DNA from: Methanomicrobiales archaeon
GTDB lineage: Archaea > Halobacteriota > Methanomicrobia > Methanomicrobiales > JACTUA01
Reading direction: 5' to 3'
NCBI GenBank assembly: GCA_030019205.1
Contig: JASEFH010000021.1
Coordinates: 1 to 45,764 of the forward strand
DNA: 45,764 bases
Part shown: positions 23,259 through 45,764 of the stretch, in pieces
Layout of the letters: every line of letters begins with the position of its first letter
Numbering within the stretch: position 1 is the stretch's first letter
The notes under the pieces: model-generated
Database searches by the model: none
Told to the model about the DNA's origin: nothing
Seen by the model: the letters and a program-made list of their open reading frames with translations, nothing else
Position numbers and translations under genes: made by a program

Positions 23259-23491
23259 TTAATTGTACGCGTGGGTCGATGAGCGGGCAGCCGGCGCAAT
23301 CATGCACATACGTGGGTGAAGATGCGGAACGGGCAGAAGCACAATATCCCAAACCTTTATGAATGGTGGGAGCAGTAAAGCGGGCAATCGCGGGATACGA
23401 TAAGAGATGGCACAGCGGTGCATCCCGGAGCATTCCTATTAGTTCTATCGGTTCCGATAACGCCGGTCAAAACAGAGAGAAGGATCGATCC

Positions 23492-24796
23492 ATGAACAGG
23501 CATACTGGTGCAGCGCCTCCCGCCTTCCATGTCATGGCAAAACCGACGGGGGCACAGTGCAATCTCGACTGTGCCTACTGTTTCTTCTTAAAAAAGGAGA
23601 GACTGTATCCGGATAGCAATTTCCGGATGACGGATGCGGTGATGGAGGCGTACATCCGCCAGACCATCGAGGGGCACCGCGTCCCCCGTGTGACGATCGC
23701 CTGGCAGGGGGGAGAGCCGACCCTGATGGGGCTCGATTTCTACCGGCGTTCTGTGGACGTGCAGAAAAAGTACAGAAAGCCCGGGACCCTCATCGAAAAC
23801 ACATTCCAGACAAACGGCGTCCTCCTGGATGACGCATGGTGCCAGTTCTTCCATGACAACCATTTCCTGATCGGCCTGAGCATGGACGGTCCTGCTGAAC
23901 TCCACGATATCTATCGGAGGGATAAAAGCGGCCATGGAACGTTCGAACGGGTTCTCGACGCCGCCCTTCTCCTCCAGAAGCATAAAGTGGAGTTCAATAT
24001 CCTCTGTACGGTCAACCGCAGGAACGCCGACCACCCGTTGGATGTGTACCGGTTCTTCCGCGATGAACTCGGGGTGCAGTACATCCAGTTCATCCCCATC
24101 GTGGAGCGGAACAGCGAGAGGGGGTACCAGGAAGGGAATACAGTGACCGATCGGTCCGTCCGCCCCGACCAATGGGGACGGTTCCTGATCGGGATCTTCG
24201 ACGAATGGATCCGGCGGGACGTAGGAAGAATGTTTGTCCTGAACTTCGACGGGGCGCTCGCGGGCTGGCTCGGGATGGCGGGGACGGTCTGCATCTTTGG
24301 GCCCACCTGCGGTCTCGGGGTGGCGCTCGAGCACAACGGGGACCTGTACTCGTGTGACCACTTTGTCGAGCCCCGATACTACCTGGGGAATATTCTCCAA
24401 ACGCCCCTGACAGAGCTCGTGGCCTCGGAGAAGCAGCGAGCGTTCGGGAGGGCCAAGAGAGATACGCTTCCCCTGTACTGCCGGGAGTGCGAGTTCATGG
24501 CCATCTGCAACGGGGAGTGCCCAAAGAACCGCTTCCTGGAGACCCCCAAGGGCGAGCCGGGGCTGAATTACCTCTGCGAAGGCTACCGGGCGTTCTTCAC
24601 TCACGCCGACCGGCCCATGCGGATCATGGCAGACCTGCTGCGGCGGGGAAGGTTCGCCGACGAGGTGCTGCAGATTCTTGCAGCAGAGGAGAGATCACGT
24701 AAATCCGGATCGGTCAGGGTAGGCCGGAATGACCCCTGCCCCTGCGGGAGCGGACTGAAGTTCAAGAAGTGCTGCGGACAGGCCCCTGGGCGGTGA
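23492..24796 (+). CDS. Anaerobic sulfatase-maturating radical SAM enzyme with C-terminal SEC-C motif
   Basis: The 434-aa product has CNLDCAYC (Cys 23, 27, 30; CxxxCxxC for the SAM-binding cluster), [16 protein letters not shown] (the G-G-E motif), and a SPASM-type C-terminal cysteine set: [20 protein letters not shown] and [19 protein letters not shown]. This is the layout of anSME, which oxidises the sulfatase Cys or Ser to formylglycine without oxygen. The last 20 residues ([16 protein letters not shown]) form a SEC-C zinc motif, an extra domain also attached to some anSMEs. The likely target is the arylsulfatase at 19039-21387 (CSPTR). ATG 23492 follows GAGAGAAGGA and is preferred to the upstream start at 23363. 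Confidence 0.92.
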
Positions 24797-25314: not shown

Positions 25315-25434
25315 GGGCTCCAGAATCTAGGAGAGTGCCGAGTGGGCGATGCAGGCGCATCCCGAGCAGTACGGTGTGCACGGGACTGCAGAAAAGCTGG
25401 TGTGTTCACGATGAAGGGGAGGGTGCGTGTTCGA

Positions 25435-27312
25435 ATGAGCAATCGGCGAGGCAGTCACTCCAGCGGAGCCATCGCCTTCCTTATCGTGTCATCCGTTCTC
25501 CTGATCGGGTGTGCATGCGGGCAGGCCCAGGAGGCTGGAACAGTCCAGGTGCTGACCGGATATCTGGCGCCGGAACAGGGGTTGTTCTACGACCTGCCCG
25601 ATCTCCAGGAGGGGCAGACCTTGTATGTCTACGCCGAGGGGACGGGCGGCAACCTGGACCCCTTCATCGCCCTCTCGGATCCGAACCTCACTCCCTTCCA
25701 GGCCCGGAATGCCTTCGTTGCCGAGGTGAACCGATCGATCGCCGAGGGGCGCGATCCGCTCCTCGCCCTTCCGGAGGTTGCAGACCGGTTCTTCCTCGCC
25801 TGGGATGACGACAGCGGTGAGGGCTATGCTGCCGCCCTGGAGTACCGCATACCCGAGAGCGGGGATTACCGGCTGGTCATCGCCAGCACACCAACCAGAG
25901 AGACCTTCGGTGAGTACCGGCTCCTGGTCGGCCTGGATGCCCCGCAGGTGCTCACCGGGGAAGCGGAACAAGGCGGTGCACCCATCGCGGTCCTGAATAC
26001 CACCCTCACCCCGCCCCGTCTGGCCATCACAGAGGCGAGCGGCTCACTGACGGAGATCCGCACATCGACCTTCTACACCCTCTACCCGGTGGAGGGCGGC
26101 GACACCTTCTATGCCTCCATCGAGGCAACCTCGGGCAACCTGATCCCCGTGATGGTCCTGCGGGATTTCGGCGGCAAACCCCTCTCCGCCGGCATTCCGG
26201 AGGGCGGGTCGAGAAGCGCTGCCCTGCAGTACACCTTTGAAGATGCCAGCAGCAACAACCGCCTGGAGATCTTCGGCCGATCTGTCAACGGGACGAATAC
26301 GACTGGCGATTACCGGCTCCTGGCAGGGCTCAATGCCCCTGAGGTCCTGACGGGTTCGGCGAATGAGACCGCCCTGCCGCTGCTCCAGCAGCCCATCGAG
26401 GTGAAGGTCGGGGTGGAGCTGGACCAGATCACCACGGTGGACCAGCAGGCCGAGCACTTCGGCGTTGTGGCGAACATCTGGATGGAGTGGACAGACCCAA
26501 ACCTTGCCTTCAGCCCCGATGCGTGCCACTGCAATTTCAAGCTCTACCGCAGCATCGAAAGTTTCGTCGCAGCGGAAGGAGAGCGGTGGCCGGAGTTCAC
26601 CCTCTTCAACCAGCAGGAGCGGCGCTGGACCCAGAACCAGCTCATTCTGGTGGAGCCGGACGGCACGGCCACCTACTTCGAGCGCTTCTGGGTGATCCTG
26701 CAGGCACCGGACTTCAACTTCCGGCAATACCCGTTCGATGAACAGGACTTCTTCATTCGGATCGACTCTCTCTATCCCGAGGGTTTCTATGTGTTCGCCC
26801 CCTGGCCGGAGAAGACCGCCATCGGCGGGCAGCTCGGGGAGGAGGAGTGGTACATCACCAGTTCCGATGCCAACGTGACGAGCATCCAGCTGACGAACAT
26901 CAACTCCCGGTACTCCTTCCACTTCAAGATGGCGCGGCATCTCACCTTCTACATCCTCCGCATCCTCGTCCCCATCCTTATCATCATTCTCCTGACCTAC
27001 GTCACGTTCCTCCTCAAGGACTACGGAAAACGGGCCGATGTCGCCGCTGCGAACCTTCTGCTCTTCATCGCGTTCAACTTCACCATCGCCGGCGATCTCC
27101 CCCGTCTGGGATACCTGACCTTCCTCGATACGATTCTGATCACGACATTTGTGATCACCGCCCTCACCGTCGGGTATAACCTCTACCTCCGCTGGCTGGC
27201 GACAGAAAAGGAGAAGGAGATCGCGGAGAGGATCGATCGGGCGGCAATCTGGGGGTATCCGCTTGCCTATATCACCGTAATTGCTGTAATTGCTCTCGCT
27301 TTCTATTTATGA
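25435..27312 (+). CDS. Pentameric ligand-gated ion channel (Cys-loop receptor superfamily) with duplicated N-terminal module
   Basis: The 625-aa product has a signal-like helix (GAIAFLIVSSVLLIGCACGQ). Two similar beta-rich modules follow (about 39-180 and 200-315), each closing with GEYRLLVGLDAPQVLTG or GDYRLLAGLNAPEVLTG. The ligand-binding domain (about 320-502) starts IEVKVGVELDQITTVDQQAE and carries FNFRQYPFDEQDFFIRI, the conserved F-x-x-x-P-F-D-x-Q region without Cys-loop cysteines. M1 (503-527) has the conserved Pro (ILRILVPILIIILL); M2 (about 534-552) is followed by AGDLPRLGYLTFLD; M3 and M4 (607-625) complete the pore. Family members are homopentameric channels gated by an extracellular ligand. 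GGGGAGGG precedes ATG 25435; 25411 is an alternative start. Ligand and ion selectivity are unknown. Confidence 0.88.
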   Translation: MSNRRGSHSSGAIAFLIVSSVLLIGCACGQAQEAGTVQVLTGYLAPEQGLFYDLPDLQEGQTLYVYAEGTGGNLDPFIALSDPNLTPFQARNAFVAEVNRSIAEGRDPLLALPEVADRFFLAWDDDSGEGYAAALEYRIPESGDYRLVIASTPTRETFGEYRLLVGLDAPQVLTGEAEQGGAPIAVLNTTLTPPRLAITEASGSLTEIRTSTFYTLYPVEGGDTFYASIEATSGNLIPVMVLRDFGGKPLSAGIPEGGSRSAALQYTFEDASSNNRLEIFGRSVNGTNTTGDYRLLAGLNAPEVLTGSANETALPLLQQPIEVKVGVELDQITTVDQQAEHFGVVANIWMEWTDPNLAFSPDACHCNFKLYRSIESFVAAEGERWPEFTLFNQQERRWTQNQLILVEPDGTATYFERFWVILQAPDFNFRQYPFDEQDFFIRIDSLYPEGFYVFAPWPEKTAIGGQLGEEEWYITSSDANVTSIQLTNINSRYSFHFKMARHLTFYILRILVPILIIILLTYVTFLLKDYGKRADVAAANLLLFIAFNFTIAGDLPRLGYLTFLDTILITTFVITALTVGYNLYLRWLATEKEKEIAERIDRAAIWGYPLAYITVIAVIALAFYL

Positions 27313-29974: not shown

Positions 29975-32764
29975 ATGTCATCCGCAAATAACGCGCCTGC
30001 AACGGAGGAAGGACGGCGGCTCCTCGAGGTCTATCAGCAGAACGCGCCCTGGCGCCGCTGGGGTCCGTACCTGAGCGAACGGCAATGGGGAACGGTGCGG
30101 GAGGATTATAGCGAAGATGGAAACTCCTGGGCTTATTTCCCCCACGATCATGCCCGATCCCGGGCCTACCTCTGGGGAGAGGACGGGATCGCGGGCCTCT
30201 CGGACGACTCCCAGCAGCTCTGCTTTGCCCTGGCACTCTGGAACGGCGCCGATCCTTTCCTCAAAGAGCGGCTCTTCGGCCTTACGAATGCCGAGGGAAA
30301 CCACGGCGAGGACGTGAAGGAGTACTATTACTACCTGGACAATACGCCGACCCATGCCTACATGAAATACCTCTACAAGTATCCCCAGGCGGCATTCCCG
30401 TACGACGATCTGCTGGAGACGAACAGGAACCGCTCACGGGAAGAACCGGAGTACGAGCTGATCGATACCGGTATCTTCGATAACGATCGCTACTTCGATG
30501 TCTTCGTGGAGTATGCGAAAGAGTCTCCCGAGGATATCCTGATCCAGATCACCGTGTACAACCGGGGGCCGGAAGAGGCCGTCCTGCACCTGCTGCCGAC
30601 GCTGTGGTTCCGCAACACCTGGTGGCTCGAGAAGGGCACGAAAAGACCGCTCCTGAAACAGATCGAAGGGCCCCCTGGCACCAGCGTCATCCAGGCCAGC
30701 CATCCGGCACTCGGCGACCGCTACCTCCACTGCGAGGGTGCTCCCGACCTGCTCTTCACCGAGAACGAGACCAACACGGAACGCATCTTCGGCACTCCGA
30801 ACGCCAGCCCTTACGTGAAGGACGGCATCAACGAGTATGTTGTTTCCCATCGAATTTCGGCGGTGAATCCGGCGCGGACGGGAACGAAGGCCGCGGCCTA
30901 CATCCCGCTGACCCTTGCAGGCGGGGAGAACCGGGTGGTGCGGCTGCGGCTGAACGAACGTCCCCCTTCCACGGCAGCCGAGGGTGAATCTCTCTTCGGG
31001 AGCCGGTTCGAGGAGATCCTGAGCGCCCGGAAGGAGGATGCGGATGCGTTCTACGACAACCTGACCCCTCCATCGGTCAGCCCGGATGCGGCCGGCGTGA
31101 TGCGCCAGGCCCTCGCCGGCATGCTCTGGACCAAACAGTACTACTTCTACGACCTGGACCGCTGGCTCCGCCAGCATGGCTCCAATATGGCCATGGGCAG
31201 CAAACGGCCTGTCCGCAACAACGAGTGGTTCCACATGTACAATGCCGACATCATCTCGATGCCGGACAAGTGGGAGTATCCCTGGTATGCCGCCTGGGAC
31301 CTCGCCTTCCATCTGGCCGCCTTTACGATGATCGACCCGGGCTTTGCCAAGCAGCAGCTGGAGCTGATCCTGCACGAACGTTACCTCCACCCGAACGGCC
31401 AGATTCCCGCCTACGAGTGGAACTTCAGCGATGTCAACCCCCCTGTGCACGCCTGGGCCGCCCTGTTCATCTACCGCGTCGAGGAGGAACTATTCGGCAC
31501 GGGAGATGTCCGGTTCCTCGAGAGCGTCTTCCAGAAGCTCCTGATGAACTTCACCTGGTGGGTGAACAGGAAAGATCGTTACGGCCAGAACGTATTCGAA
31601 GGAGGGTTTTTAGGGCTGGACAATATCGGGGTCTTCGATCGCAGCGCCACCATCCCATCGGGAGGCTACCTGGAACAGTCCGACGGTACCGCATGGATGG
31701 CGCTCTACTGCCAGAACATGCTTGAGATCGCATCGACTCTTGCCGTTCACAATTCGGTCTACGAGGAACTCGCCATCAAGTTCTACGAGCACTTCCTCTG
31801 GATTGCATCGGCCATGAACCGCATGGGCGAGAACCAGGAGGGGATGTGGGACGAGTGGGACGGGTTCTTCTACGACCTCCTGCACCTGCCGGACGGAAGC
31901 GCCACCCGCCTCAAAGTGCGGACCCTGGTGGGTCTCCTCCCCCTATGCGCCAGTACCGTCTTCGAGCCGGATGTGCTCCGCGGAATGCCCGCCTTCCTGG
32001 AGCGCGCAAAGCGGTTCAATCAGAGCCATCCGCTGCTCACCGCCAACATCACGTCGCCGGCCCGGGCCGGGTTCCAGAATCGCCGCCTTCTCTCCCTGGT
32101 AAACGAGGAGAGGCTGCGCCGGATCCTCGCGCGCATGCTGGACGAGAGTGAGTTCCTCAGCGACTTCGGGATCCGCTCTATCTCCCGGGCCCATGCCGAG
32201 AACCCGTACACCTTCATCCTGGACGGCCAGGAGTTCGATGTCACCTACCTGCCGGCGGAATCCAACACGAATATGTTTGGCGGGAACTCGAACTGGCGGG
32301 GACCCATCTGGTTCCCGATGAACCTCCTGATCATCCGGAGCCTGCTCAGCCTGTATGCATTCTACGGAGACAGTTTCACCATCGAATGCCCCACAGGCTC
32401 TGGGCGGTGGATGAACCTCTATGAGGTGGGCGAAGAGATCAAGCGCCGGCTCGAACGCATCTTCCTCAGGGACGAGACCGGGCGACGCCCGGTCTTCGGA
32501 TCTGTATCCAAGTTCCAGGAGGACCCGCACTGGCGGGATTACATCCTGTTCTACGAGTACTTCCACGGCGACAACGGTGCCGGCCTGGGCGCGAGCCACC
32601 AGACGGGCTGGACCGGTATCATCGCGCGGCTCACGCAGTTATTTGCGTATATGACTCCGGAAATGCTCCTGACACCGGAAGGCAGGCAGCTCGGGTATAT
32701 GAAAAGGGCGGGTGCTACTCCAGCGGCTGCGGAGGCGCCGCCGACGGCTACGACTGCTCGATGA
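29975..32764 (+). CDS. GH63/MGH1-like glucosidase
   Basis: The 929-aa cytosolic enzyme has an N-terminal beta-rich domain with RRWGPYLSERQWGTVREDYS and EDGNSWAYFPHDHARSRAYL, the opening of a large glucosidase group in bacteria and archaea. A C-terminal (alpha/alpha)6 domain follows. Candidate catalytic residues are Asp about 442 in YPWYAAWDLAFHLAAF and Glu about 481 in IPAYEWNFSDVNPPVHAW. Later NTNMFGGNSNWRGPIWFPMN and ASHQTGWTGIIARL are also conserved blocks. The family acts on alpha-glucosides, trehalose-like or mannosylglycerate-type compatible solutes; the substrate is unknown here. Length is normal. The aquaporin remnant converges on its 3' end. Confidence 0.88.
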   Translation: MSSANNAPATEEGRRLLEVYQQNAPWRRWGPYLSERQWGTVREDYSEDGNSWAYFPHDHARSRAYLWGEDGIAGLSDDSQQLCFALALWNGADPFLKERLFGLTNAEGNHGEDVKEYYYYLDNTPTHAYMKYLYKYPQAAFPYDDLLETNRNRSREEPEYELIDTGIFDNDRYFDVFVEYAKESPEDILIQITVYNRGPEEAVLHLLPTLWFRNTWWLEKGTKRPLLKQIEGPPGTSVIQASHPALGDRYLHCEGAPDLLFTENETNTERIFGTPNASPYVKDGINEYVVSHRISAVNPARTGTKAAAYIPLTLAGGENRVVRLRLNERPPSTAAEGESLFGSRFEEILSARKEDADAFYDNLTPPSVSPDAAGVMRQALAGMLWTKQYYFYDLDRWLRQHGSNMAMGSKRPVRNNEWFHMYNADIISMPDKWEYPWYAAWDLAFHLAAFTMIDPGFAKQQLELILHERYLHPNGQIPAYEWNFSDVNPPVHAWAALFIYRVEEELFGTGDVRFLESVFQKLLMNFTWWVNRKDRYGQNVFEGGFLGLDNIGVFDRSATIPSGGYLEQSDGTAWMALYCQNMLEIASTLAVHNSVYEELAIKFYEHFLWIASAMNRMGENQEGMWDEWDGFFYDLLHLPDGSATRLKVRTLVGLLPLCASTVFEPDVLRGMPAFLERAKRFNQSHPLLTANITSPARAGFQNRRLLSLVNEERLRRILARMLDESEFLSDFGIRSISRAHAENPYTFILDGQEFDVTYLPAESNTNMFGGNSNWRGPIWFPMNLLIIRSLLSLYAFYGDSFTIECPTGSGRWMNLYEVGEEIKRRLERIFLRDETGRRPVFGSVSKFQEDPHWRDYILFYEYFHGDNGAGLGASHQTGWTGIIARLTQLFAYMTPEMLLTPEGRQLGYMKRAGATPAAAEAPPTATTAR

Positions 32765-32783
32765 AGCATCCAAACCCCCCCAC

Positions 32784-32800
32784 CATTTTTCATTAAAAAA
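32784..32800. terminator. Bidirectional oligo-T/oligo-A terminator between glucosidase and aquaporin
   Basis: T5 (32786-32790) on plus and A6 (32795-32800, T6 on minus) lie between the convergent 3' ends and could terminate both transcripts. Confidence 0.4.
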
Positions 32801-33588
32801 GTTCGAGAAGATCTCAGAGCGAGTCTCTGGAGTTCGGTTTTTGCAGCCTTCGCCACAGCGACCGGGCGGGTAACTCCCGTCACCAGGATGTACCGCCAGA
32901 GGACAGCGGCCAGGACGGCGCCGATGAGGGGTGCGACCCAGAAGAGCCAGAGCTGCATCAGCGCCTCGCCGCCGACAAAGACCGCCGGTCCCAGGCTCCG
33001 CGCCGGGTTGACAGAAGCGTTGGTCACCGCGATCATGACGATACGCACCATCGACAGCGCCAGACCAATCGGCAGAGCGGCAAATCTCCTCAGTTCCTCG
33101 ATGCCTGTCACCGCCATGATTACGAAGACGAACAGGAGCGTCATCACCACCTCGACCATGAACCCGGATGCAAGGGAGTAGCCTCCCGGCGACAGCGCAC
33201 CGTATCCGTTCTGACCGAGCCCGTCCACGGCGAGCGAGTAGGAGGGGTTTCCCACCGCGATGGAAAGAATCACTCCGGCAGCGATGATGGCCCCGATGCA
33301 CAACGATATAGATGATCGCCTCCCACGCCGGCATCTTGCCCGCCATCAGCACTCCCACCGTGACAGCGGGATATGGCACCCGGAAACGTCGCCGATGGCA
33401 TAGACCATCGCAAGAAGAGCCAGTCCGAAAGCCAATGCCACGCCGAGATTCCCGACCACCGCCCCGCCAAGCACCGCACTTCCGATCCCGATCAGCACTG
33501 CTGCAGAGGTTCCGAACATTTTTTCAGCAGCGTATTTTTCCAATCCATTCCAACCATATATCTTCATCTCCGCGATACCTGGAGGCAT
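32801..33588 (-). pseudogene. Aquaporin/glyceroporin (MIP family), frameshifted
   Basis: Frame from ATG 33588: KMFGTSAAVLIGIGSAVLGG, ALAFGLALLAMVYAIGDVSG, then GCHI. The first NPA box should follow but a deletion breaks it, and the next frame resumes with PAVTVGVLMAGKMPAWEAII. A second indel near 33300-33310 returns to the first frame: CIGAIIAAGVILSIAVGN, FMVEVVMTLLFVFVIMAVTG, then ASVNPARSLGPAVFVG with the intact second NPA box, and LWLFWVAPLIGAVLAAVLWR. So Asn of the first NPA is gone and a stretch of about 25 residues is out of frame. Read-through continues past the expected end into the glucosidase gene, so the normal stop is lost too. MIP channels conduct water or glycerol. Confidence 0.8.
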
Positions 33589-35877: not shown

Positions 35878-38343
35878 ATGCCGGCACCCCCAGGAACACC
35901 CGAGCGGCAACGAGCCTCCAGGCATGAGATCCCCGCAGATGGGGAGCAGTTCGTTCGAGAGAGGGCGCAGCAGCTCCAGAACGAGAACGCCGCGCTGCGA
36001 CGCGAGCTGGAAGCCCTGCGGGAGAGCAGGGAGCGATACAGATCCCTGGTAGAACAGTCCCCGGACGCCGTTTTCGTCCACGATCTCGAGGGGCAGCTCC
36101 TCTATGCGAACCCGACAGCCCTCCGCCTCACGGGCGTGCAGGACATCCGCGAACTGGAAGGCCGCTCCGCGTTCGCCGCGCTGCCCGCGGAAGGGGTGGG
36201 TGTCGCCCGCGCGGGCATCCAGGCGCTGATGCGGGGAGAGTCCCTTCCGCCCATTGCAATGCCCGTCCAGTTGCCCGACGGCAGCCGTATCTTCGTCGAA
36301 GCGATGGCAGCCATGATCGAGTATGGAGGGCGTGCGGCGGTTCAGGTGGTGCTGCGGGACGTCACCGAGCGCAAGAAGGCGGAGGAGGACCTGCGCGAGT
36401 CCGAAGCGCGTCTGCGGCTTGCCACAGAATCCGCCGGCATGTTCGGATGGGAGATAGACCTGGCCGCGCAGACATTCGCATGGTCCGAGAATGCGGAGCG
36501 CGTGATCGATACCCCCCTGCCGACAAAAGTGGCCGATATCTGGACACTGGTTCACCCCGATGACCGTGCCGCTCTGCAGGAGGTGCTGGAGCGGATGATT
36601 GAAAGCGGCGGCGAGTTCAGGGTCGAGTACCGGATTCTCACCCCTCCATCGGACAGGGAGATCTGGCTTCTCTCGGCCGGCGTGGCGATTGCGGGTGCTA
36701 ATGGCAGGCCCGCGCGCCTGGTCGGCATATCGCAGAATATCACCGAGCGCAAGAAGGCGGAGGAGGACCTGCAGGAGCGCGAGGAGCAGCTACGGAACCT
36801 GATCGAGAGTTCCGGCGACGGTATCGTTCTCACCGACGAGACGGGGCGGATCACCACCTGGAACCGGGGCATGGAGGCGATCACCACCCTTGCCGCCAGC
36901 GATATCCTGGGGAGGCCGGCCTGGGAGATCCAGGCAGAGATCGTGGATGCGGACTGGGCGGGGCCGGATTATCGGAAGCGGTATCGGGCGGTATGGGACA
37001 GGGTGCTGAAGGAGGGGGCCTATCCGCACTACAACCGCCTCCTGGACGTGCAGATCCGCACCCCGAACGGAGAGGTGCGGTATCTCCAGCAGAGCCTCTT
37101 CACCATTCCCACCCGCCGGGGATACCGCGTCGGGTGCATCATGCGCGACGTCACCGAGAGGAGGCGGGAAGAGCGGGAAAAAGAGATGCTGCTCCAGCGC
37201 ATCGAGGCAGAGCGTTCGATTCTGCGATCCGTGCTCGAACAGATGCCGGAAGCGGTGATGATCGCCGAAGCCCCGTCCGGCAGGATTATCCTGGACAACA
37301 AGCAGCTGCTGCAGATATGCCGCTTGCCCGTTGACCTGGATATCGACGTTGCAAAGGCGCCCTCCTGGAGCGCCTACGGCTACCATCCCGACGGCAGACC
37401 CTACGGCATCGAGGAGTGGCCGCTCTTCCGCGCCCTGCACCGAGGTGAGGTGATCGTCGACGAGGAGATCAGGGTGCGGCGCGGTGATGAAACCTGGGGC
37501 TGCATCAGCGTCCGTGCAGCGCCAATCCGCGATGCAGGCGGTGCCATCCAGGGCGCTGTCGTTCTCGCGGCCGATATCACCAGGAGAAAGAGAGCCGAAG
37601 AACTGCTGGAAGAGCGCTCCCGGGATCTCCAGCGATCGAACGAGGATCTGGAGCGGTTCGCCTATGCCGTCTCCCACGACCTGCTGGAGCCGGTGCGCAT
37701 GATCACCAGTTACGCCCAGCTCCTCGCCCGCCGCTACAGAGGGAAGCTGGATGCGGATGCCGACGAGTTCGTCGGGTTCATCGAGCAGGGCGGGCGGCGG
37801 ATGCACGACCTGATCACCGACCTGCTGGCATACTCCCGGGTATCGACCCGCCAGCAGCCCCTGGTGCCCACGGATACAGAAACCGTCCTCGCCGAAGTGC
37901 AACAGAACCTCCAGTTCACCCTCCAGGAGGCAGGAGCCGAGGTGACGCACGATCCCCTCCCCGCGGTGCTGGCCGACCCGACCCAGCTCCGCCAGGTCTT
38001 CCAGAACCTGATCGCGAACGCCGTCAAGTTCCGGAGGGAGGGCGTGCCGCCGCGGGTCCACGTTGCGGCAGAGAGGGATGGCGGCATGGTGCGGTTCAGC
38101 GTCGCCGACAACGGCATCGGGATCGACCCCCAGTACTTCGACCAGATCTTCGTCGTCTTCCGGCGGCTGCACGCCCAGATGGAGTACGAGGGGACCGGCA
38201 TCGGGCTCGCCATCGTCAAACGCATCGTGGAGCGGCACGGCGGGCGGATCTGGGTCGAGTCCGAGCCGGGGAGGGGATCTACGTTCTTCTTCACGCTGCC
38301 CGCGGTGCAGGAAGCGGGCCCGGGGGATAGAGAGCCCGGATGA
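35878..38343 (+). CDS. Multi-PAS sensor histidine kinase
   Basis: The 821-aa soluble kinase has a short coiled coil (ERAQQLQNENAALRRELEAL) and four PAS domains: about 50-170 (RYRSLVEQSPDAVFVHDLEG), 178-300 (LRLATESAGMFGWEIDLAAQ), 304-425 (LRNLIESSGDGIVLTDETGR) and 445-565 (VLEQMPEAVMIAEAPSGRII). The HisKA box follows with the phosphorylated His near 600 (AYAVSHDLLEPVRM), then the HATPase domain with NLIANAVKFRRE, VADNGIGIDPQYFD and YEGTGIGLAIVKRIVERHGG. No membrane segment, so it senses an internal signal, perhaps redox or light. ATG 35878 is chosen because upstream residues are not kinase-like. The stop overlaps the ATG of the response regulator remnant (ATGA). Confidence 0.9.
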   Translation: MPAPPGTPERQRASRHEIPADGEQFVRERAQQLQNENAALRRELEALRESRERYRSLVEQSPDAVFVHDLEGQLLYANPTALRLTGVQDIRELEGRSAFAALPAEGVGVARAGIQALMRGESLPPIAMPVQLPDGSRIFVEAMAAMIEYGGRAAVQVVLRDVTERKKAEEDLRESEARLRLATESAGMFGWEIDLAAQTFAWSENAERVIDTPLPTKVADIWTLVHPDDRAALQEVLERMIESGGEFRVEYRILTPPSDREIWLLSAGVAIAGANGRPARLVGISQNITERKKAEEDLQEREEQLRNLIESSGDGIVLTDETGRITTWNRGMEAITTLAASDILGRPAWEIQAEIVDADWAGPDYRKRYRAVWDRVLKEGAYPHYNRLLDVQIRTPNGEVRYLQQSLFTIPTRRGYRVGCIMRDVTERRREEREKEMLLQRIEAERSILRSVLEQMPEAVMIAEAPSGRIILDNKQLLQICRLPVDLDIDVAKAPSWSAYGYHPDGRPYGIEEWPLFRALHRGEVIVDEEIRVRRGDETWGCISVRAAPIRDAGGAIQGAVVLAADITRRKRAEELLEERSRDLQRSNEDLERFAYAVSHDLLEPVRMITSYAQLLARRYRGKLDADADEFVGFIEQGGRRMHDLITDLLAYSRVSTRQQPLVPTDTETVLAEVQQNLQFTLQEAGAEVTHDPLPAVLADPTQLRQVFQNLIANAVKFRREGVPPRVHVAAERDGGMVRFSVADNGIGIDPQYFDQIFVVFRRLHAQMEYEGTGIGLAIVKRIVERHGGRIWVESEPGRGSTFFFTLPAVQEAGPGDREPG

Positions 38344-38747
38344 GACCGATCGCGATCCTCCTGGTAGAGGATAACCCGGCGGATATCAAACTGACCGAGG
38401 AGGCGCACCGCGAAGTAGCGGTGCCGGGCCAGCTCACGGTCGTGCAGGACGGCGTAGAAGCGATGGCGTTCCTTCAACGGGAGGGCCGTAGGTTTCGGCC
38501 CCGACGCCCGACCGGGATCTGAACCCCGCCCCGCATGAGCGGAATCGAGTTCCTGGACGCGATCTTTTCCGACAGCCGCCTCCAGCAGATCCCGATCGTG
38601 GTGCTGACGGGATCGGTGGATCGGGAGGAGCGGGCAGAGCCTGCGAGGCGGCCGATCCTCCGGCATATCATCGAACCCCCGGATATCGACGAGTACTTCA
38701 CGGCGATCCAGTCGGTCCTGACAGATCTCTCGATACTCCGGAGGTAA
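38340..38747 (+). pseudogene. Response regulator receiver domain (Rcp1-like), broken
   Basis: From ATG 38340 it begins RPIAILLVEDNPADIKLTEE with the acidic pocket (E-D-N), the standard start of stand-alone receivers paired with phytochrome-like kinases. After FLQREGRRF the sequence loses the expected L-I-L-L-D-L-N-L-P block; the frame ends at TGA 38520-38522. The family sequence resumes at 38535 (MSGIEFLDAIFSDSRLQQIP) with the T/S switch region IVVLTGSVD, then EPPDIDEYFTAIQ where Lys of the usual K-P is replaced by Glu. A deletion between two GATCTGA-like repeats would explain the loss of the phosphorylation-site segment. It overlaps the kinase stop by four bases, so kinase and partner were once coupled. 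Confidence 0.7.
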
Positions 38748-39140
38748 AGGGCCGGAGATGGGCGAATTTCATCGCCGGCTTGCGCTGGGCATGCTCGCAG
38801 CTGACCCACGGGGATGGGACGGCCACGCGGGGAGTCGCTTCTATCGGGACCGCTGTGGCCGAGGCGATGACGGGGGCATGGTCGACCTGCATCTCACTCC
38901 GGCACCGGCCCTGCATTCCGTCGGGGGTGGAAAGGAGACTATGGATCCTCCCCGCACGGCGGGGCCACGGCTCCCATGCGGCATGGCAATGCGATTGGAG
39001 GCATATAGAACCCAATAAGCCTTTCTTTCACTTATTAAATGCCTTTAATGGAGTTTTTATCCAAACGAAACATTTCAATACCTATATCGATCGAATGGAC
39101 AATTTAATTGCAGCCGTACTCCCTCGATGGAGACTCCGCC
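38748..39140. other. Spacer with an A/T-rich stretch before the helicase gene
   Basis: The left part is GC-rich without a supported gene. About 39010-39110 is strikingly A/T-rich compared with both sides. It contains CTATATC at 39082-39088, a candidate TATA box for the helicase gene. Confidence 0.5.
39082..39088 (+). promoter_or_regulatory. Candidate TATA box of the helicase-nuclease gene
   Basis: CTATATC in the A/T-rich patch; transcription predicted near 39112 and a leader of about 29 bases. Confidence 0.4.
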
Positions 39141-42100
39141 ATGGCGATACCCGAAGCCCAGATCGATGCCATCCGCCGGCGGCTGCTGGACCTCACCCAG
39201 CGCAACCGCCTCCTGAACTACCGCCCCTCGAAGGCGCGCACCATACCCGTGGTAGACGAGAATCCCCGGGAGGTGTACGACATCCTGGTGCTGCGGGAGA
39301 AGGCGATGCGGTTCCACCCGCGGGAGAGAGGGGAGCCAGCCGCCGATGCAGCGGCTGCCGGGACCGGGAAGGGCGCGGGGGAAGCCTCTACCGCCCCGGC
39401 GGAGGACGAGGAGCCCTGGCAGGCGATCGCAGAGGGGGATACGCCGCCGCACCAGACCGACACGCTTCTCGAGACGCCGCTCTCCGCCGACATCCTTCGG
39501 GAGCGGCTCTTCACCGTTCACAACCAGGCGAGAACAGCCCTCGAAGAGCAGGGCTACAGTATCCTCTACCTCGCCCTGGGATTCCTGGAGTACACCGATA
39601 CCGCCGGCACCGTCCGCTCCGCCCGGGCTCCCGTGCTGCTCGTCCCCGTCGAGCTGGAGCGCATCCGCGCGGGCGGGACGTATACGCTCCGCTGGACGGG
39701 GGAGGAGATCCTCATGAACCTCTCCCTGGCAGAGCGGCTCAGGGAGCTGGATGTGCTCCTGCCCGAGTTCGAGATGCCGGAGGAGAAGGCAGGCATCGAC
39801 GCCTACCTGACCGCCGTGCGGGACGCGATCGTGCACAAACCCTCCTGGAGGCTGCTCGCCGGGATCTGCCTGGACTTCTTCAGCTTCACCAAGTTCGTCA
39901 TGTTCCGCGACCTGGACCCGCAGACCTGGCCCGAAGGGCGGTCCCCGGCCGACCACCCCCTGCTGAACGCCGTCCTGAACCCCTCCGAAGAGTACGATGC
40001 CGCGGACGAGTTCGACGAGAAAACGGTGGACGAGCGGCTTCCGGGGCACGCGGTCTTCCACGTGGTGGACGCCGACTCGTCCCAGATCGCCGTCATCGAA
40101 GCGGTGAACCGCGGGGCGAACCTGGTGGTGGAGGGGCCGCCGGGGACGGGCAAGTCCCAGACCATCACCAACGTCATCGCCGAGAGCCTCGCCCGGGGAA
40201 AGAGCGTCCTCTTCGTGAGCGAGAAGATGGCGGCGCTGCAGGTGGTGAAGAGCCGCCTGGACCGCGCCGGCCTGGGGGAGTTCTGCCTGGAGCTGCACAG
40301 CCGCAAGACGAACAAGCGGAAGGTGCTCGAGGAGCTGCGCCGCACCCTGGAGACCGATCTTCTGCGCGAGGAGTCCTTCGAGGCCGAGATCGCGCGGCTG
40401 GAAGGACTCAAAGAGGAGTTGAACAGCTACGTGCGGGCGCTGGCCGAACCGATCGGCGGGCGGGGACTCTCGCCGTTCCAGGCCTTCTGCCTGCATGAAC
40501 GGGCGCGGCAGCAATTCGAGCGGGCAGGAAGGAGCATGGCACGGATCTCCCTGGCGGATCCGGAGCGCATGGCGCCGCCCGAATGGGACGCCGCGGTCGC
40601 CGCCCTGGAGGGGCTGCAGGGCATCCTGCCCCTCGTCCGCCCTATCCAGGAGAACCCCTGGCGGGGCTGCACCCCGGGGCTGATCCTACCCCCGGACCTG
40701 GACCGCCTGCGGGATCTGCTGGAAGAGAGCGCGGGCGAGATAGAGCGGATCCGGGAGGCGGCGGCGCTCCTGGCCGAACTGTCGGGCTGCGCCGTGCCCT
40801 CGACACCGGGGGATCTTGCACGGGCGCGCACGGCCGCCGCCCTCGTCGCCTCGGCGCCGCCGCTCGAGCGGGACGTCATTCTGCACCCGGCCTGGAGGAG
40901 CCCGCCCGATTCGGTGGAGCCGCTCATGGCGCTGGTCCGGCGGTACCGGGAGGAGCGCGATGCAGTCCTGGCACGGTTCCGCCCGGAGATCCTGGATCGG
41001 GACGTGGATGCCCTGCTGGCCGAGTACCGGGCCCAGTCGTCTGCGTTCCTGAAGACGCTGCGATCGGGCTACCGTGCGGTCCGGCGGGAGGTGGGCAGCC
41101 TCTACGCCGGTGCCGTCCCCTCAGACGACGCCCGTATTCTGGCGGACCTGGCGGCGGCATCGGAGTGCCGCCGGCTGCGGGATGCGGTGCGGCAGGCGGA
41201 GCCGCAGGGGAGGGCCTTCTTTGGCGCCCTGTGGATGGAGGAGGAGAGCGACTGTGCCAGTCTGCAGGCATTCGCCGACTGGATGGCAAAATTCCGGCTC
41301 CAGCTGGCGCAGGGCGTGCTCACGCCCCGGGCGATCGGCATCCTCTACAGCGGGGTGCCGCGGGGAGAGATAGAGGGCTGCTCCCGCCTGCTGGGCCAGG
41401 CGGAGGAGCGGCTCGCCGCCGCGCTGGATGCCCTCTTCGGTACGCTGGGAACGGACGCGGAGCGCAGTCTCGGGACGCCCTGCGAGCGGGCGGCGTTCGC
41501 GGACCTCGAGTCCCGGATCCGTTCGTGGATATCCCGCCTTGACGACCTGCCGCGCTGGTCGCAGTACGTCGCATTCCGGGAGGAGGCCCTGGCCACTCCC
41601 GCCGCACCCCTCGTGGGGGCGGTCGAGGAGGATGGCATCGAGCCCGACGATCTGGTCCCGACGTTCGAAGGCAGCTACGCCGAAGGGCTGCTGAAGGCGG
41701 CATTCACCGAGAGGCCGCTCCTCGCGCAGTTCGTCGGGGAGCGGCACGAGAACCGCATCCGGCGGTTCGCGGCGTCGGATCAGGAGAGCCTCCACTGGAA
41801 CCAGTGCCGCGCCATGCTCCGCCTCTACCGCAGCCGCCCCCGGATCTGCGGCGGGGCCTCGAAGGAATCCGAGGCGGGGATCCTGCTGCGGGAGTTCAAC
41901 CGCAAACGGGGGCACATGCCCATCCGCCGTCTGATGAGCCGGGCCGGAGGGCTCATCCAGAAGATCAAACCCTGTTTCATGATGAGCCCGCTCTCGATCG
42001 CCCAGTTCCTGGACCCGCGATCGGTCTGCTTCGACCTCATCGTCTTCGACGAGGCCAGCCAGGTCCGTCCCGAGGATGCCCTGGGGGCGTTCCTGCGGGG

Positions 42101-43949
42101 GCGGCAGGTCGTCGTCATGGGGGACTCGCGCCAGCTGCCGCCGACCGCCTTCTTCGACCGCCTGGTAGAAGACGAAGAGGACGACGGGGCGGACGAGATC
42201 GCCGAGAGCATCCTCAACCTCTGCCGGCGGAGTTTTCCCCGCAAGATGCTCCGCTGGCACTACCGCAGCCGCCACGAGTCGCTCATCGCCGTCTCGAACC
42301 GGGAGTTCTACGACAACCGTCTCTACGTCTACCCGTCGGCAGTGGACCGGGCGGAGCACCTGGGGCTGCACCTCGTCCATCTGCCGCAGACCGTCTACGA
42401 CCGGGGGCGGAGCTCCGCCAACCGCGGGGAAGCCCGGGCGGTAGCGGAGGCGGTGCTGGACCACTACCGCACCCGTCCGGGAAAGAGCCTCATGGTGGGC
42501 ACCTTCAACGTCCGACAGCAGACCGCGATCCGCGAAGAGGTGGAGCGGCTGCTGCGGCAGAACCCGCAGGTCGAGGACGCGATGAAGGGCATCGAGCCCT
42601 TCGACGTCAAGAACCTGGAGACGATCCAGGGCGACGAGCGCGACGTGGTCTTTATCAGCGTCGGGTTCGGCTTCGACGAGCGGGGGAAGCTCTCCCTCAA
42701 CTTCGGGCCCCTCAACCAGGCGGGCGGGGAGCGGCGCCTGAACGTGCTCATCACCCGGGCCCGCGAGAAGTGCGTGGTCTTCTCCAACTTCCGCGGGCGG
42801 GACCTCGCTCTGGACGAGAACGCACCCACAGGGCTGCAGGTCCTGAAGCAGTTCCTGGAGTATGCCGAGACGGGCTCGCTGGCCCCGTACGGGGATACCG
42901 GGGCGGATGGAGAGACCCCCCTGGAGACGTCCGTGTACGAGTTCCTGTTCGAGAACGGCCACACCCTGCGGAAACAGGTGGGCTGCGCCGGCTTCCGCGT
43001 GGACCTGGCGGTCGTCGATCCCGACTCCCCCGGGACCTACCTCCTCGGGATCGTGTGCGACGGCGCACGCTACCACACGTCCCGGGTGGCCCGCGACCGC
43101 GACCGCCTGCGGCAGCAGATCCTGGAGGGGCTGGGCTGGCGGATCCACCGCGTCTGGTCCCCCGACTGGTACCGCAACCGGAAGGAGTGCGAGAGGAGAT
43201 TGCTGGAGGCGATCGAGGCGGCGAAGCAACAGAAAGAGCACCCGCCCGAGCGATCCCCGGAACCGGCCGCCCTGCCCCCGCCCGCCATGACGATGAGGAG
43301 CGGCATGCCGGAAACCGGAACGATGGAGGAGAGCGTCCCCCCCTATACGATCTGCGACGATCCGGGGCTGAGCCCTTCGGAAGATATCGTGTCCATTCCC
43401 GAGGGCGATCTGGTCCGGGCGGTCGGGAGGATCGCGGAGGTGGAGGGGCCGGTGCACGTGGAGACCGCGATCCAGCGCATCCGCACCGCCTGCGGCACGA
43501 AAAGGCTCGGGAAGAAGGCCCGGGATGCGGTGCTGGCGGCGATAGCGCGAGCGGAGGCGGAGGGCGCCGTGCGGCTGCGGGGAGAGTTCCTCTGGCCGCC
43601 AACCGGCCCGAATGCGCTGCTGCGGCGGCGGGACGCCGCCACGGGGATCAAACTCTACCAGATCTGCGACGAGGAGATTCGGGCGGGGATCGAACTGGTG
43701 CTGCAGCATCAGTTCGCCACGGCGGAGGAGGACCTGATCGCCCGCACGGCGAAGCTGCTCGGCATCCGCTCGGTCCGGAACGGCGTCGCGGAGCGGATGG
43801 AGGCGGTGATCGGGTCGATGGTCAAGGAGGGTGTGCTGGAGAAGGGGCAAAACGGCACGATCCAGCGTGCAGCCCCCGAACCGCCGGCGCCGCCTGCCGC
43901 GGAGAACACCCCCGATCGCCGCGATAGCGATGACGGGATCAGGCCGTGA
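39141..43949 (+). CDS. DUF4011 / superfamily 1 helicase / PD-(D/E)xK-like nuclease protein (Hhe-type defence candidate)
   Basis: The 1602-aa product opens with the DUF4011 signature (IRRRLLDLTQRNRLLNYRPS). The ATPase core has Walker A GPPGTGKSQT (332-341) and Walker B IVFDEASQ (Asp about 970), with VVVMGDSRQLPPTAFF, WHYRSRHESLIAVSNREFYD and LNVLITRAREKCVVFSNFRG for the remaining SF1 (Upf1-like) motifs. From about 1255 a Vsr/MTES_1575-type nuclease fold follows (VGCAGFRVDLAVVD with Asp about 1288, then LLGIVCDGARYHTS). About 1410-1470 is a DUF3320-like winged helix. This order is that of the single-gene anti-phage system I recall as Hhe (DUF4011-helicase-Vsr). It is probably cytosolic and acts on invading DNA. 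ATG 39141 is chosen by family start. It is intact and very GC-rich, and lies 1.2 kb from the CRISPR array. Confidence 0.87.
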   Translation: MAIPEAQIDAIRRRLLDLTQRNRLLNYRPSKARTIPVVDENPREVYDILVLREKAMRFHPRERGEPAADAAAAGTGKGAGEASTAPAEDEEPWQAIAEGDTPPHQTDTLLETPLSADILRERLFTVHNQARTALEEQGYSILYLALGFLEYTDTAGTVRSARAPVLLVPVELERIRAGGTYTLRWTGEEILMNLSLAERLRELDVLLPEFEMPEEKAGIDAYLTAVRDAIVHKPSWRLLAGICLDFFSFTKFVMFRDLDPQTWPEGRSPADHPLLNAVLNPSEEYDAADEFDEKTVDERLPGHAVFHVVDADSSQIAVIEAVNRGANLVVEGPPGTGKSQTITNVIAESLARGKSVLFVSEKMAALQVVKSRLDRAGLGEFCLELHSRKTNKRKVLEELRRTLETDLLREESFEAEIARLEGLKEELNSYVRALAEPIGGRGLSPFQAFCLHERARQQFERAGRSMARISLADPERMAPPEWDAAVAALEGLQGILPLVRPIQENPWRGCTPGLILPPDLDRLRDLLEESAGEIERIREAAALLAELSGCAVPSTPGDLARARTAAALVASAPPLERDVILHPAWRSPPDSVEPLMALVRRYREERDAVLARFRPEILDRDVDALLAEYRAQSSAFLKTLRSGYRAVRREVGSLYAGAVPSDDARILADLAAASECRRLRDAVRQAEPQGRAFFGALWMEEESDCASLQAFADWMAKFRLQLAQGVLTPRAIGILYSGVPRGEIEGCSRLLGQAEERLAAALDALFGTLGTDAERSLGTPCERAAFADLESRIRSWISRLDDLPRWSQYVAFREEALATPAAPLVGAVEEDGIEPDDLVPTFEGSYAEGLLKAAFTERPLLAQFVGERHENRIRRFAASDQESLHWNQCRAMLRLYRSRPRICGGASKESEAGILLREFNRKRGHMPIRRLMSRAGGLIQKIKPCFMMSPLSIAQFLDPRSVCFDLIVFDEASQVRPEDALGAFLRGRQVVVMGDSRQLPPTAFFDRLVEDEEDDGADEIAESILNLCRRSFPRKMLRWHYRSRHESLIAVSNREFYDNRLYVYPSAVDRAEHLGLHLVHLPQTVYDRGRSSANRGEARAVAEAVLDHYRTRPGKSLMVGTFNVRQQTAIREEVERLLRQNPQVEDAMKGIEPFDVKNLETIQGDERDVVFISVGFGFDERGKLSLNFGPLNQAGGERRLNVLITRAREKCVVFSNFRGRDLALDENAPTGLQVLKQFLEYAETGSLAPYGDTGADGETPLETSVYEFLFENGHTLRKQVGCAGFRVDLAVVDPDSPGTYLLGIVCDGARYHTSRVARDRDRLRQQILEGLGWRIHRVWSPDWYRNRKECERRLLEAIEAAKQQKEHPPERSPEPAALPPPAMTMRSGMPETGTMEESVPPYTICDDPGLSPSEDIVSIPEGDLVRAVGRIAEVEGPVHVETAIQRIRTACGTKRLGKKARDAVLAAIARAEAEGAVRLRGEFLWPPTGPNALLRRRDAATGIKLYQICDEEIRAGIELVLQHQFATAEEDLIARTAKLLGIRSVRNGVAERMEAVIGSMVKEGVLEKGQNGTIQRAAPEPPAPPAAENTPDRRDSDDGIRP

Positions 43950-44390
43950 GCGGACCGCCTTCCTCGATCACCCTGGATACGGACGGTGTACTCCGCGATC
44001 GGAATCTTCCTGCCCGAGCGTTCCAGGGCTCGTCGCAGGACGTAGTTCACCCCGTGGCAGCAGGGCACCTCCATGTGCAGCACCGTGATCGAACGGATGG
44101 TATGGAGGATGAAGATGTCCGCCAGTCTCTCGACGTAATCCTCGATGTCCTCGTCCAGTTTCGGGCAGAAGACGATCGCGATCCGCCCCCGCAGGAAGTC
44201 GCGGTGGAAGTCCGCGTAGGCGGAGGGTACGCAGTCCGCGGCGACGGGGAGATCCGCGTCTCGATGCAGGGGGCGGCCGGGTTCGGTAGCCGCAGCTGCA
44301 CGGGCCACTGCCGCAGTTCCGATGCTGCGGGCCGCCGGGCCCGGGCACTCCGCCGCGGGAGCCGGACGATGCCGGGAGCCGCCCGCATGC
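43950..44390 (-). pseudogene. 4Fe-4S ferredoxin-type protein, C-terminal remnant with a frameshift
   Basis: On the minus strand, one frame from about 44390 gives SELRQWPVQLRLPNPAAPC. The frame at 44308 continues with RDADLPVAADCVPSAYADFH, RDFLRGRIAIVFCPKLDEDI, LADIFILHTIRSITVLHMEV and PCCHGVNYVLRRALERSGRK, ending EYTVRIQG. This is the C-terminal domain of a methanogen protein family whose N-terminus carries two 4Fe-4S clusters. The N-terminal cluster part and the start are missing, the frame shifts near 44300, and the normal stop is absent: translation would run on into the helicase gene. Function of intact members is probably electron transfer. Confidence 0.65.
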
Positions 44391-44403: not shown

Positions 44404-44949
44404 TCAGGCGCTCTCTTTCTCCTTCGGGGTGATGATATACTCCTCGATGAGCTGATACGGCTTGTGGTCTACCGACATCTCGTTCTTCCAGTGCACGGAG
44501 TGCGGGTCAGAGGCATCCCAGGTGAACCGCAGCTTCACGGGCGAGTCTCCCATCGACTCCATGATCAGGGCATCCCCCTCGATTCTGCCATGGAACATGA
44601 ACGAAGCGCCGTTGCTGTCGACGCCCACCGCCCGATACTCGCGGGCGCGCGGATCCCACCCGGCGACCCAGTGCGCCTTCCAGGTCAGAATTTTCTTCCC
44701 CCCCACGAACTGGTCCTGTTCGAAATGGCAGGAGAGCCAGAGGCCGTCGATGATCCACGCGCAGGTCGCACGCCCGCTCGCTGCCATCTCCGGCGATCCC
44801 GCCCCCATCCCGCCGGCCTTCACGGTCCCCGTCCAGGTGCCATCCCCGTGGAACCGCTCCAGCGCCCGGGTCTCGGGAGTGGGTTCGAGTATCGCCGGGG
44901 CCCAGGGCGCACTGGTCCCGCGTTCCGTATCGTCTGAACTATCGGTCAT
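44404..44949 (-). CDS. DUF1579 family protein
   Basis: The 181-aa product has a polar N-terminus (MTDSSDDTERGTSAPWAP), then LERFHGDGTWTGTVKAGGMG, GRATCAWIIDGLWLSCHFEQ, KILTWKAHWVAGWDPRAREY and GDSPVKLRFTWDASDPHSVH. This is the strand pattern of DUF1579 (lipocalin-like barrel) with the conserved G-x-W-x-G and G-W-D-P. No signal peptide. Family function is unknown; related folds bind small hydrophobic ligands. ATG 44949 is preferred to 44961. It lies directly beside the 4Fe-4S remnant and has the same strand; the CRISPR array begins about 190 bases upstream of it. Confidence 0.85.
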   Translation of the reverse strand: MTDSSDDTERGTSAPWAPAILEPTPETRALERFHGDGTWTGTVKAGGMGAGSPEMAASGRATCAWIIDGLWLSCHFEQDQFVGGKKILTWKAHWVAGWDPRAREYRAVGVDSNGASFMFHGRIEGDALIMESMGDSPVKLRFTWDASDPHSVHWKNEMSVDHKPYQLIEEYIITPKEKESA

Positions 44950-45136
44950 ACGGCAGAGCATGAGTGAGGGATGGCGTATTAACAGTTGCCGACGATGGGT
45001 GCGGTCTCACGAATCCGGCCGGCACGGCAGAGATAGTCTATCGCATGAATCCGACTCCCCGGGATATCTTCGGGGAGCGGCGATAACAGCCTCCGGGGAT
45101 CATTTGTCTGATAAGACCTGCAGATGTTCAGGTTCT

Positions 45137-45764
45137 CTTTTTACTCATGCACCCATGGAGGGTGCGACCAGCGGTAGACGTATCCATCGCTCGTCCCCGC
45201 ATAATTTCAACCCACGCACCCGTGAAGGGTGCGACGGGCAACCCTCATCGGGACGAACCTTATTGGGGCATTTCAACCCACGCACCCGTGAAGGGTGCGA
45301 CAACCCTGCCTGGATGTTGAGCTTCTCCGCCATGTAATTTCAACCCACGCACCCGTGAAGGGTGCGACAAGAGGAAGGCGGAATATAAGCCGAAACCGAA
45401 AACATTTCAACCCACGCACCCGTGAAGGGTGCGACTGCCGTACGTCGCGAGACTCAGCTGGGACGCTAAAGAATTTCAACCCACGCACCCGTGAAGGGTG
45501 CGACGTGGTACTGTCCCGAGTGCGGGATGCAGGTGAAGTATTTCAACCCACGCACCCGTGAAGGGTGCGACTCCCAGAGAGGACACTGCGCAGTCGCATC
45601 ATACTTATTTCAACCCACGCACCCGTGAAGGGTGCGACGGCCGTCAGGAACGCGCCGGTCACAAGCACCACATCTATTTCAACCCACGCACCCGTGAAGG
45701 GTGCGACTTTCTTCGTTCCCGCCGGGCTGCGCCTCCTGCTCCCATTTCAACCCACGCACCCGTG
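45137..45764 (-). CRISPR. CRISPR array, type I-C-like repeats, 10 repeats and 9 spacers, running off the window
   Basis: The 32-base repeat (plus-strand reading starts ATTTCAACCC and ends GGGTGCGAC) occurs at 45204, 45270, 45337, 45404, 45473, 45540, 45607 and 45676, and partly at 45744. A degenerate copy with about seven changes is at 45137-45168. Spacers are 34-37 bases: 45169-45203, 45236-45269, 45302-45336, 45369-45403, 45436-45472, 45505-45539, 45572-45606, 45639-45675 and 45708-45743. On the minus strand the repeat begins GTCGCACCC and ends GTTGAAAT with a GCACCC/GGGTGC stem, the form of type I-C repeats. The array is therefore read leftward, the degenerate copy being the old trailer end. 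No cas gene lies in the window. Confidence 0.97.

Follow-up and report, generated by a model that had tools for sequence, protein, structure and literature searches.

The stretch of DNA analysed here (the window, 45,764 nucleotides) contains a gene whose product, as far as its sequence tells, is probably a DNA helicase-nuclease of the defence type, gained by horizontal transfer, acting as a single-gene system and belonging to the PDC-S37 / ProA-like family. The family is a known candidate for defence, and in this putative member the nuclease site is altered. The wider pattern is a more interesting result than the window copy itself, since the family leads two lives, scattered among defence genes on the one hand and fixed as a core gene in two methanogen genera on the other. 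Genes for defence are commonly regarded as transient passengers, and the fixed copies hint that one of them has been put to lasting cellular use. The family is a natural test of immunity genes turning into cell-maintenance genes, because the scattered copies keep an intact site among defence genes while two genera hold a fixed core copy, one of them without the site. For annotation pipelines, the same pattern means that a "phage-defence" match can be a core gene.

Domain organization of the helicase-nuclease

The gene is present in one copy in the genome and is an uninterrupted frame from its ATG to its stop codon (Table 1), preceded by a GGAG seen by eye at positions 39129-39132. The initial annotation had proposed the order DUF4011, helicase and Vsr/MTES_1575-like nuclease. 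This order was borne out by Pfam and by the fold model, which add a DUF3320 winged-helix part behind the nuclease, with the SF1 helicase split in pieces (residues 313-373, 963-1003 and 1032-1216) and DUF3320 at residues 1418-1460. Both Walker motifs, likewise noted before, are present, and Walker A and motif II (DEAS, residues 970-973) are unchanged compared to the relatives. Among helicases of solved structure, those closest in sequence are SMUBP-2, Sen1 and Upf1. An AlphaFold2 model of residues 1-325, covering DUF4011 (pLDDT 76.7), matched no PDB chain with a Z of at least 2 and gave no Foldseek match at E <= 0.001, although such an absence of structural matches is no demonstration of a new fold.

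Table 1. Positions of the helicase-nuclease gene, its parts and its neighbours in the window.
Feature	Position	Strand	Remarks
DUF4011 - SF1 helicase - Vsr-type nuclease - winged-helix protein (P0001)	39141..43949	+	1602 aa
DUF4011 domain, residues 14-200	39180..39740	+	Pfam PF13195, E 5.2e-41
Walker A GPPGTGKS, residues 332-339	40134..40157	+	Lys kept in 59/59 rows with a letter there (60 aligned)
Helicase motif II (Walker B) VFDEAS, residues 968-973	42042..42059	+	D970 and E971 in 60/60 aligned rows
Second helicase lobe (AAA_12), residues 1032-1216	42234..42788	+	Pfam
MTES_1575 Vsr-type nuclease domain, residues 1262-1358	42924..43214	+	PF18741, E 5.5e-34; fold matches
Codon 1305 (Val)	43053..43055	+	Glu in 89/112 other homologous domains
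Two winged-helix domains, residues 1421-1485 and 1510-1576 (model residues 197-261 and 286-352), overlapping DUF3320	43401..43868	+	AlphaFold2 model
Response-regulator remnant, two frames	38340..38747	+	Neither piece with a Pfam match
C-terminal remnant of a 4Fe-4S-type protein (named by eye)	43971..44308	-	No Fe-S Pfam match
Type I-C CRISPR array, distal part	45204..45764	-	Eight complete perfect repeats; degenerate repeat at 45137-45168

Assignment to a defence family

Comparison with defence annotation models, a check that the initial annotation had suggested, confirmed the kinship to anti-phage helicase-nucleases and contradicted the name Hhe given to the gene. The best PADLOC model was PDC-S37 (1737.6 bits; protein residues 6-1573 on model positions 8-1543 of 1550), an assignment that denotes the best model with a full-length match, against 708.2 bits for the PADLOC Hhe model. 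The best NCBIfam model was the anti-phage ProA (NF058533), with 1409.4 bits, below its cut-off of 1500, and the match spans model positions 357-1902 of 1903, the first 356 being unmatched; the NCBIfam Hhe model (NF042953) reached 988.3 bits, far from its cut-off of 2000. Hhe was thus ruled out by two curated models, as the protein fails the NCBIfam cut-off and PADLOC ranks PDC-S37 higher, and judged from these profile scores the protein is PDC-S37 / ProA-like. The same ranking was obtained for five relatives (from ANME-2, Methanosarcina, Methanocorpusculum, Poribacteria and Methanomicrobiales), which scored 1275-1432 bits for ProA, all below the cut-off, and 1547-1832 bits for PDC-S37. The literature search returned no paper under the name PDC-S37, no source publication for the anti-phage ProA among the papers listed and none joining DUF4011 with a helicase and Vsr.

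Fold and active site of the nuclease domain

The absence of a nuclease fold in the C-terminal part had been named as a finding that would speak against the initial annotation, and such a fold is present in the predicted structure. Residues 1225-1602 were modelled with AlphaFold2 (30 rows; pLDDT 81.2 on average, pTM 0.53), and the model runs from a helix through three strands and further helices to one strand, behind which come two winged helices. It was matched by VIA-align 2 to I-Bth0305I (3r3p, Z 13.0), NGO0050 (Z 11.8) and Vsr (1cw0, Z 11.6), the last over 104 aligned residues (model residues 30-140, Vsr residues 17-143). Foldseek alone gave no match for this model at E <= 0.001, and searching the PDB chains with a sequence profile of the C-terminal part returned matches too weak for use.

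The nuclease had also been described as complete, which holds for the Vsr-type fold and for four residues of the motif (Glu1262, Asp1288, Asp1307 and His1312) but not for the motif Glu, replaced by Val1305. Our motif census covered 114 distinct domains, two of them (L001 and L170) being the window itself, which leaves 112. Glu was found at the 1305 position in all nine plasmid domains, 17/17 from viral contigs, 21/22 from Methanosarcina and 42/44 from other genomes, and in none of the 20 from Methanocorpusculum; the viral figure refers to the domains counted out of 26 loci, the others being too short or weak, on IMG/VR contigs that may include host DNA. All 20 Methanocorpusculum domains have Leu at the Glu position and Trp at the position of the motif His. 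The full Glu/Asp/Glu/Asp/His set is kept in every plasmid and viral domain (9/9 and 17/17) and in 13/22 Methanosarcina domains, the motif His being Tyr in nine of the 22; one Methanosarcina copy (L123, genome G420) has Ala at the Glu position. A rule by which core copies lose their nuclease is unsupported, given that Methanosarcina, where the gene is also core, mostly keeps the Glu. Apart from residue 1305, the window nuclease domain resembles its relatives, with a median identity of 70% to 16 Glu-bearing ones compared to 72% among these, and the identities of the window domains to the relatives stay inside or close to the spread that the relatives show with one another.

Selection was estimated for 13 Methanocorpusculum genes (78 pairs), and the median dN/dS, based on 16-24 usable pairs per domain with synonymous sites near saturation, was 0.059 for the nuclease, 0.044 for the second helicase part and 0.076-0.112 elsewhere. 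These low values point to strong purifying selection, and therefore the Glu-less nuclease domain of Methanocorpusculum is still kept.

Because the motif Glu is Val1305, cutting by the window copy has probably been weakened, altered or lost. The substitution does not prove inactivity, since Vsr, a small stand-alone repair enzyme, is not known to carry an acidic residue at the equivalent of 1305, its catalytic residues and the correspondence of positions being taken as background and not computed. That the window nuclease is still active, with this position dispensable as in Vsr, is compatible with the acquired-defence explanation and quite possible, though not probable: the four retained residues, the fold match to Vsr and the purifying selection on the Glu-less Methanocorpusculum domain agree with it, whereas the complete motif in 26/26 plasmid and viral-contig domains counted, and the additional loss of His throughout Methanocorpusculum, as expected of a dead site, argue for the opposite.

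Distribution and gene neighbourhoods of the relatives

Of 100 relatives searched, 19 gave some match and 13 had true homologues (strong and over most of the protein), 12 in the genus Methanocorpusculum (g18) and one in genome G086. Homologues were found in none of the ten relatives from the window's family, three of which are at least 90% complete and seven at most 88%, the window's genus having no other member in the comparison set, and in none of seven genomes of g11, the sister genus of Methanocorpusculum. Among the sequences compared, none exceeds about 50% full-length identity, and the window copy looks horizontally acquired. In a sample of the phylum, 152/390 genomes gave a match, many with weak helicase similarity only.

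In Methanocorpusculum and Methanosarcina the gene belongs to the core and keeps a fixed position. In the former it occurs in all 12 genomes at least 90% complete (23/25 overall), with the same three downstream genes (transporter-like, by eye) at 14/14 loci and a common upstream gene (c4) at eight of the 14. In the latter it occurs in 22/23 genomes and directly follows a TatC-/EamA-like gene (by eye) at 17/20 loci, with a single frame between them at one more. The Methanosarcina homologues (L110-L131) are mostly 1800-2000 aa long, the extra residues of those examined lying by the nuclease/winged-helix part, and two Methanosarcina genomes additionally carry a 1600-aa form. Conservation in the same place in all relatives had been named as evidence for a housekeeping role, and it was observed within these two genera while the ten family relatives lack the gene.

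A quick IQ-TREE phylogeny of 51 rows was built from the DUF4011 and helicase columns only, leaving out fragments and near duplicates (L032, L078, L048, L050, L028, L029, L042, L041, L047, L027, L012, L023 and L003). The window copy forms a long branch that neighbours Methanosarcina, Methanocorpusculum and two further rows, and parsimony on this tree gives three changes away from Glu. Independent losses of Glu in the window copy and in Methanocorpusculum are not claimed, because the AU test did not reject a clade of the two (p-AU 0.298).

The surroundings of the scattered copies include BREX, Wadjet, Gabija and restriction genes. At 14 loci picked for having flanks, the 59 proteins within 5 kb matched 105 PADLOC families at 1e-10, including BrxL, PglZ, JetA, JetB, GajB, MTase_II, REase_II and a CARF regulator (one protein each), compared to seven families for 58 proteins flanking core loci (9 of the 14 listed core loci, 58 of 97 proteins), mostly mad3, mad8 and AriA, which appear to be generic ATPase matches. 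A total of 333 plasmid records matched, 240 of them from Klebsiella, and ten cover at least 80% of the query; the two Klebsiella matches listed are annotated as Hhe. A Salinibacter plasmid homologue is located near cas1e/cas2e, and a Paraburkholderia homologue near a DUF4297 anti-phage-associated gene. One phage record matched, in addition to the 26 viral-contig loci.

These distributions bear on the view that the gene encodes a core genome-maintenance helicase, involved in repair or in fork or R-loop handling, and that the defence annotation is a by-product of common domains. We consider this rather unlikely. The high prevalence and the fixed positions in Methanocorpusculum and Methanosarcina would fit it, as would the low dN/dS in every Methanocorpusculum domain (0.04-0.11) and the likeness to SMUBP-2, Sen1 and Upf1, and a passage in one report describes a DUF4011 gene as core in every P. 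aeruginosa isolate (PMC10250203). However, the gene is missing from the sister genus and from the window's family relatives, scattered copies have defence genes around them, others are carried by plasmids and viral contigs, and even a gene fixed for long may still serve immunity.

Surroundings of the window gene

The gene had been placed in a defence island 1.2 kb from a CRISPR array, and the distance holds, as 1255 bases separate the end of the gene from the first perfect repeat, which places the gene at the distal side of the array. The array has eight perfect 32-nt repeats (0 expected by chance), and its repeat occurs 24 times in the genome, eight at the end of the window and 16 where contig C2 begins, the latter being followed by cas1c, cas4, cas7/Csd2, cas8c/Csd1, cas5c and cas3, a type I-C system. 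The window contig (C21) ends inside the array, which very probably continues into the start of C2, beside the cas genes, a join that we infer. A PADLOC scan of nine other window proteins gave one HEAT-repeat match and one radical-SAM match (viperin model), both probably generic, and no convincing defence gene besides the CRISPR system. The island is supported by the array with its cas genes on C2 and not by these nine proteins, and as a reading of the window surroundings it is weak.

Several other features of the window deserve mention. The protein matching the viperin model (3.3e-13) is a radical SAM/SPASM protein with a SEC-C motif at 23363-24796 (+). A DUF1579 protein at 44404-44961 (-) adjoins the array, has a second copy at C2:39424-39951 and has homologues in two family relatives; for the neighbour of the helicase-nuclease gene, the contigs that hold the homologues of two family relatives are short (9,018 and 6,241 bases) and show no common surroundings by eye. 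A 656-aa protein at 25342-27312 (+) shows, in an archaeon, a match to a neurotransmitter-gated ion channel ligand-binding domain (Neur_chan_LBD, E 5.8e-12), and a 782-aa sulfatase with an SGSH_C part lies at 19042-21387 (-). No Rfam match and no tRNA were found in the window. Aquaporin (MIP) similarity extends across two frames at 32554-33588 (-), probably a frameshifted gene.

The observation that neighbouring genes are broken was substantiated by longer homologues: the response-regulator piece is a 63-codon frame, compared to paralogue frames of 145-273 aa in the same genome, and the 4Fe-4S-type piece matches 112 aa of relatives' frames that are mostly 277-294 aa. Together with the split aquaporin gene and the lost catalytic residue, these truncations could be taken as signs of a decaying region in which the helicase-nuclease gene itself is dying, at an early stage of pseudogenisation. 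Such a fate is improbable for a gene with 1602 codons free of stops, all helicase motifs intact and domain identities within or near the range among its relatives.

Proposed function and origin

From the observed domains, predicted fold, motif state, distribution and relatives' gene neighbourhoods we infer a DNA substrate, an order of steps, an activity against viruses and an effect of Val1305. The two C-terminal winged helices and DUF4011 would grip DNA that is foreign or undergoing replication, the SF1 motor would travel along or unwind it using ATP, and the Vsr-type domain would cut once the complex is held up or comes to a free end; in the window copy, the motor and the fold are kept and this last step would probably be impaired or changed.

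The acquired-defence explanation is favoured by the full-length best match to PDC-S37 and the near-cut-off match to ProA, with the same ranking in five relatives of other lineages, and acquisition by horizontal transfer by the sporadic occurrence (0/10 family relatives) and the distant nearest sequence. The plasmid homologues, the defence genes beside scattered copies as opposed to few at core loci, and the Salinibacter and Paraburkholderia neighbours also argue for it, as do the unchanged helicase motifs and a nuclease domain that, residue 1305 aside, is as conserved as in relatives with the Glu. On the other side, no convincing defence gene besides CRISPR was seen in the window neighbourhood, the fixed core copies of two genera fit housekeeping as well, the ProA cut-off is unmet, the AU test allows grouping with Methanocorpusculum, and the family relatives are few (ten, seven of them at most 88% complete) with the genus otherwise unrepresented.

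For the fixed copies, a tentative and somewhat doubtful possibility is that a mobile defence gene was domesticated in Methanocorpusculum, becoming obligatory and fixed in position throughout the genus and losing Glu and His while its nuclease domain stayed under purifying selection; it may now handle DNA as a motor whose pseudo-nuclease binds and does not cut. The window copy, which shows the first change alone, may stand midway on such a path or on a branch beside it. This pattern of nuclease loss rests on one genus, as Methanosarcina, also core, mostly keeps the Glu.

Comparison with known systems

Among the described families, PDC-S37 is the closest, since the window protein matches this PADLOC phage-defence candidate over its full length and has its order of DUF4011, SF1 helicase, MTES_1575 and DUF3320 winged helix. 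It differs in having Val1305 and no convincing defence neighbour except the CRISPR system, and PDC-S37 is itself a candidate only. The Glu/Asp/Glu/Asp/His motif, of which the window keeps four of five residues, is no stated criterion of the PDC-S37 model and is not universal in the family. ProA is matched near the cut-off, without the first part of its model, and Hhe shares the DUF4011, SF1 helicase and nuclease regions, with far lower scores. Vsr endonuclease appears to share the predicted nuclease fold, although this likeness is no evidence of a common function and the window domain is fused to a helicase. Finally, as outlined in a passage of PMC3710099, MTES_1575-type giant proteins with the order HEPN, transglutaminase, SF1 helicase, Vsr REase and wHTH have in common with the window protein the SF1 helicase, the Vsr-type nuclease and the winged helices overlapping DUF3320, and differ in carrying HEPN and transglutaminase domains, neither of which Pfam reports in the window protein.
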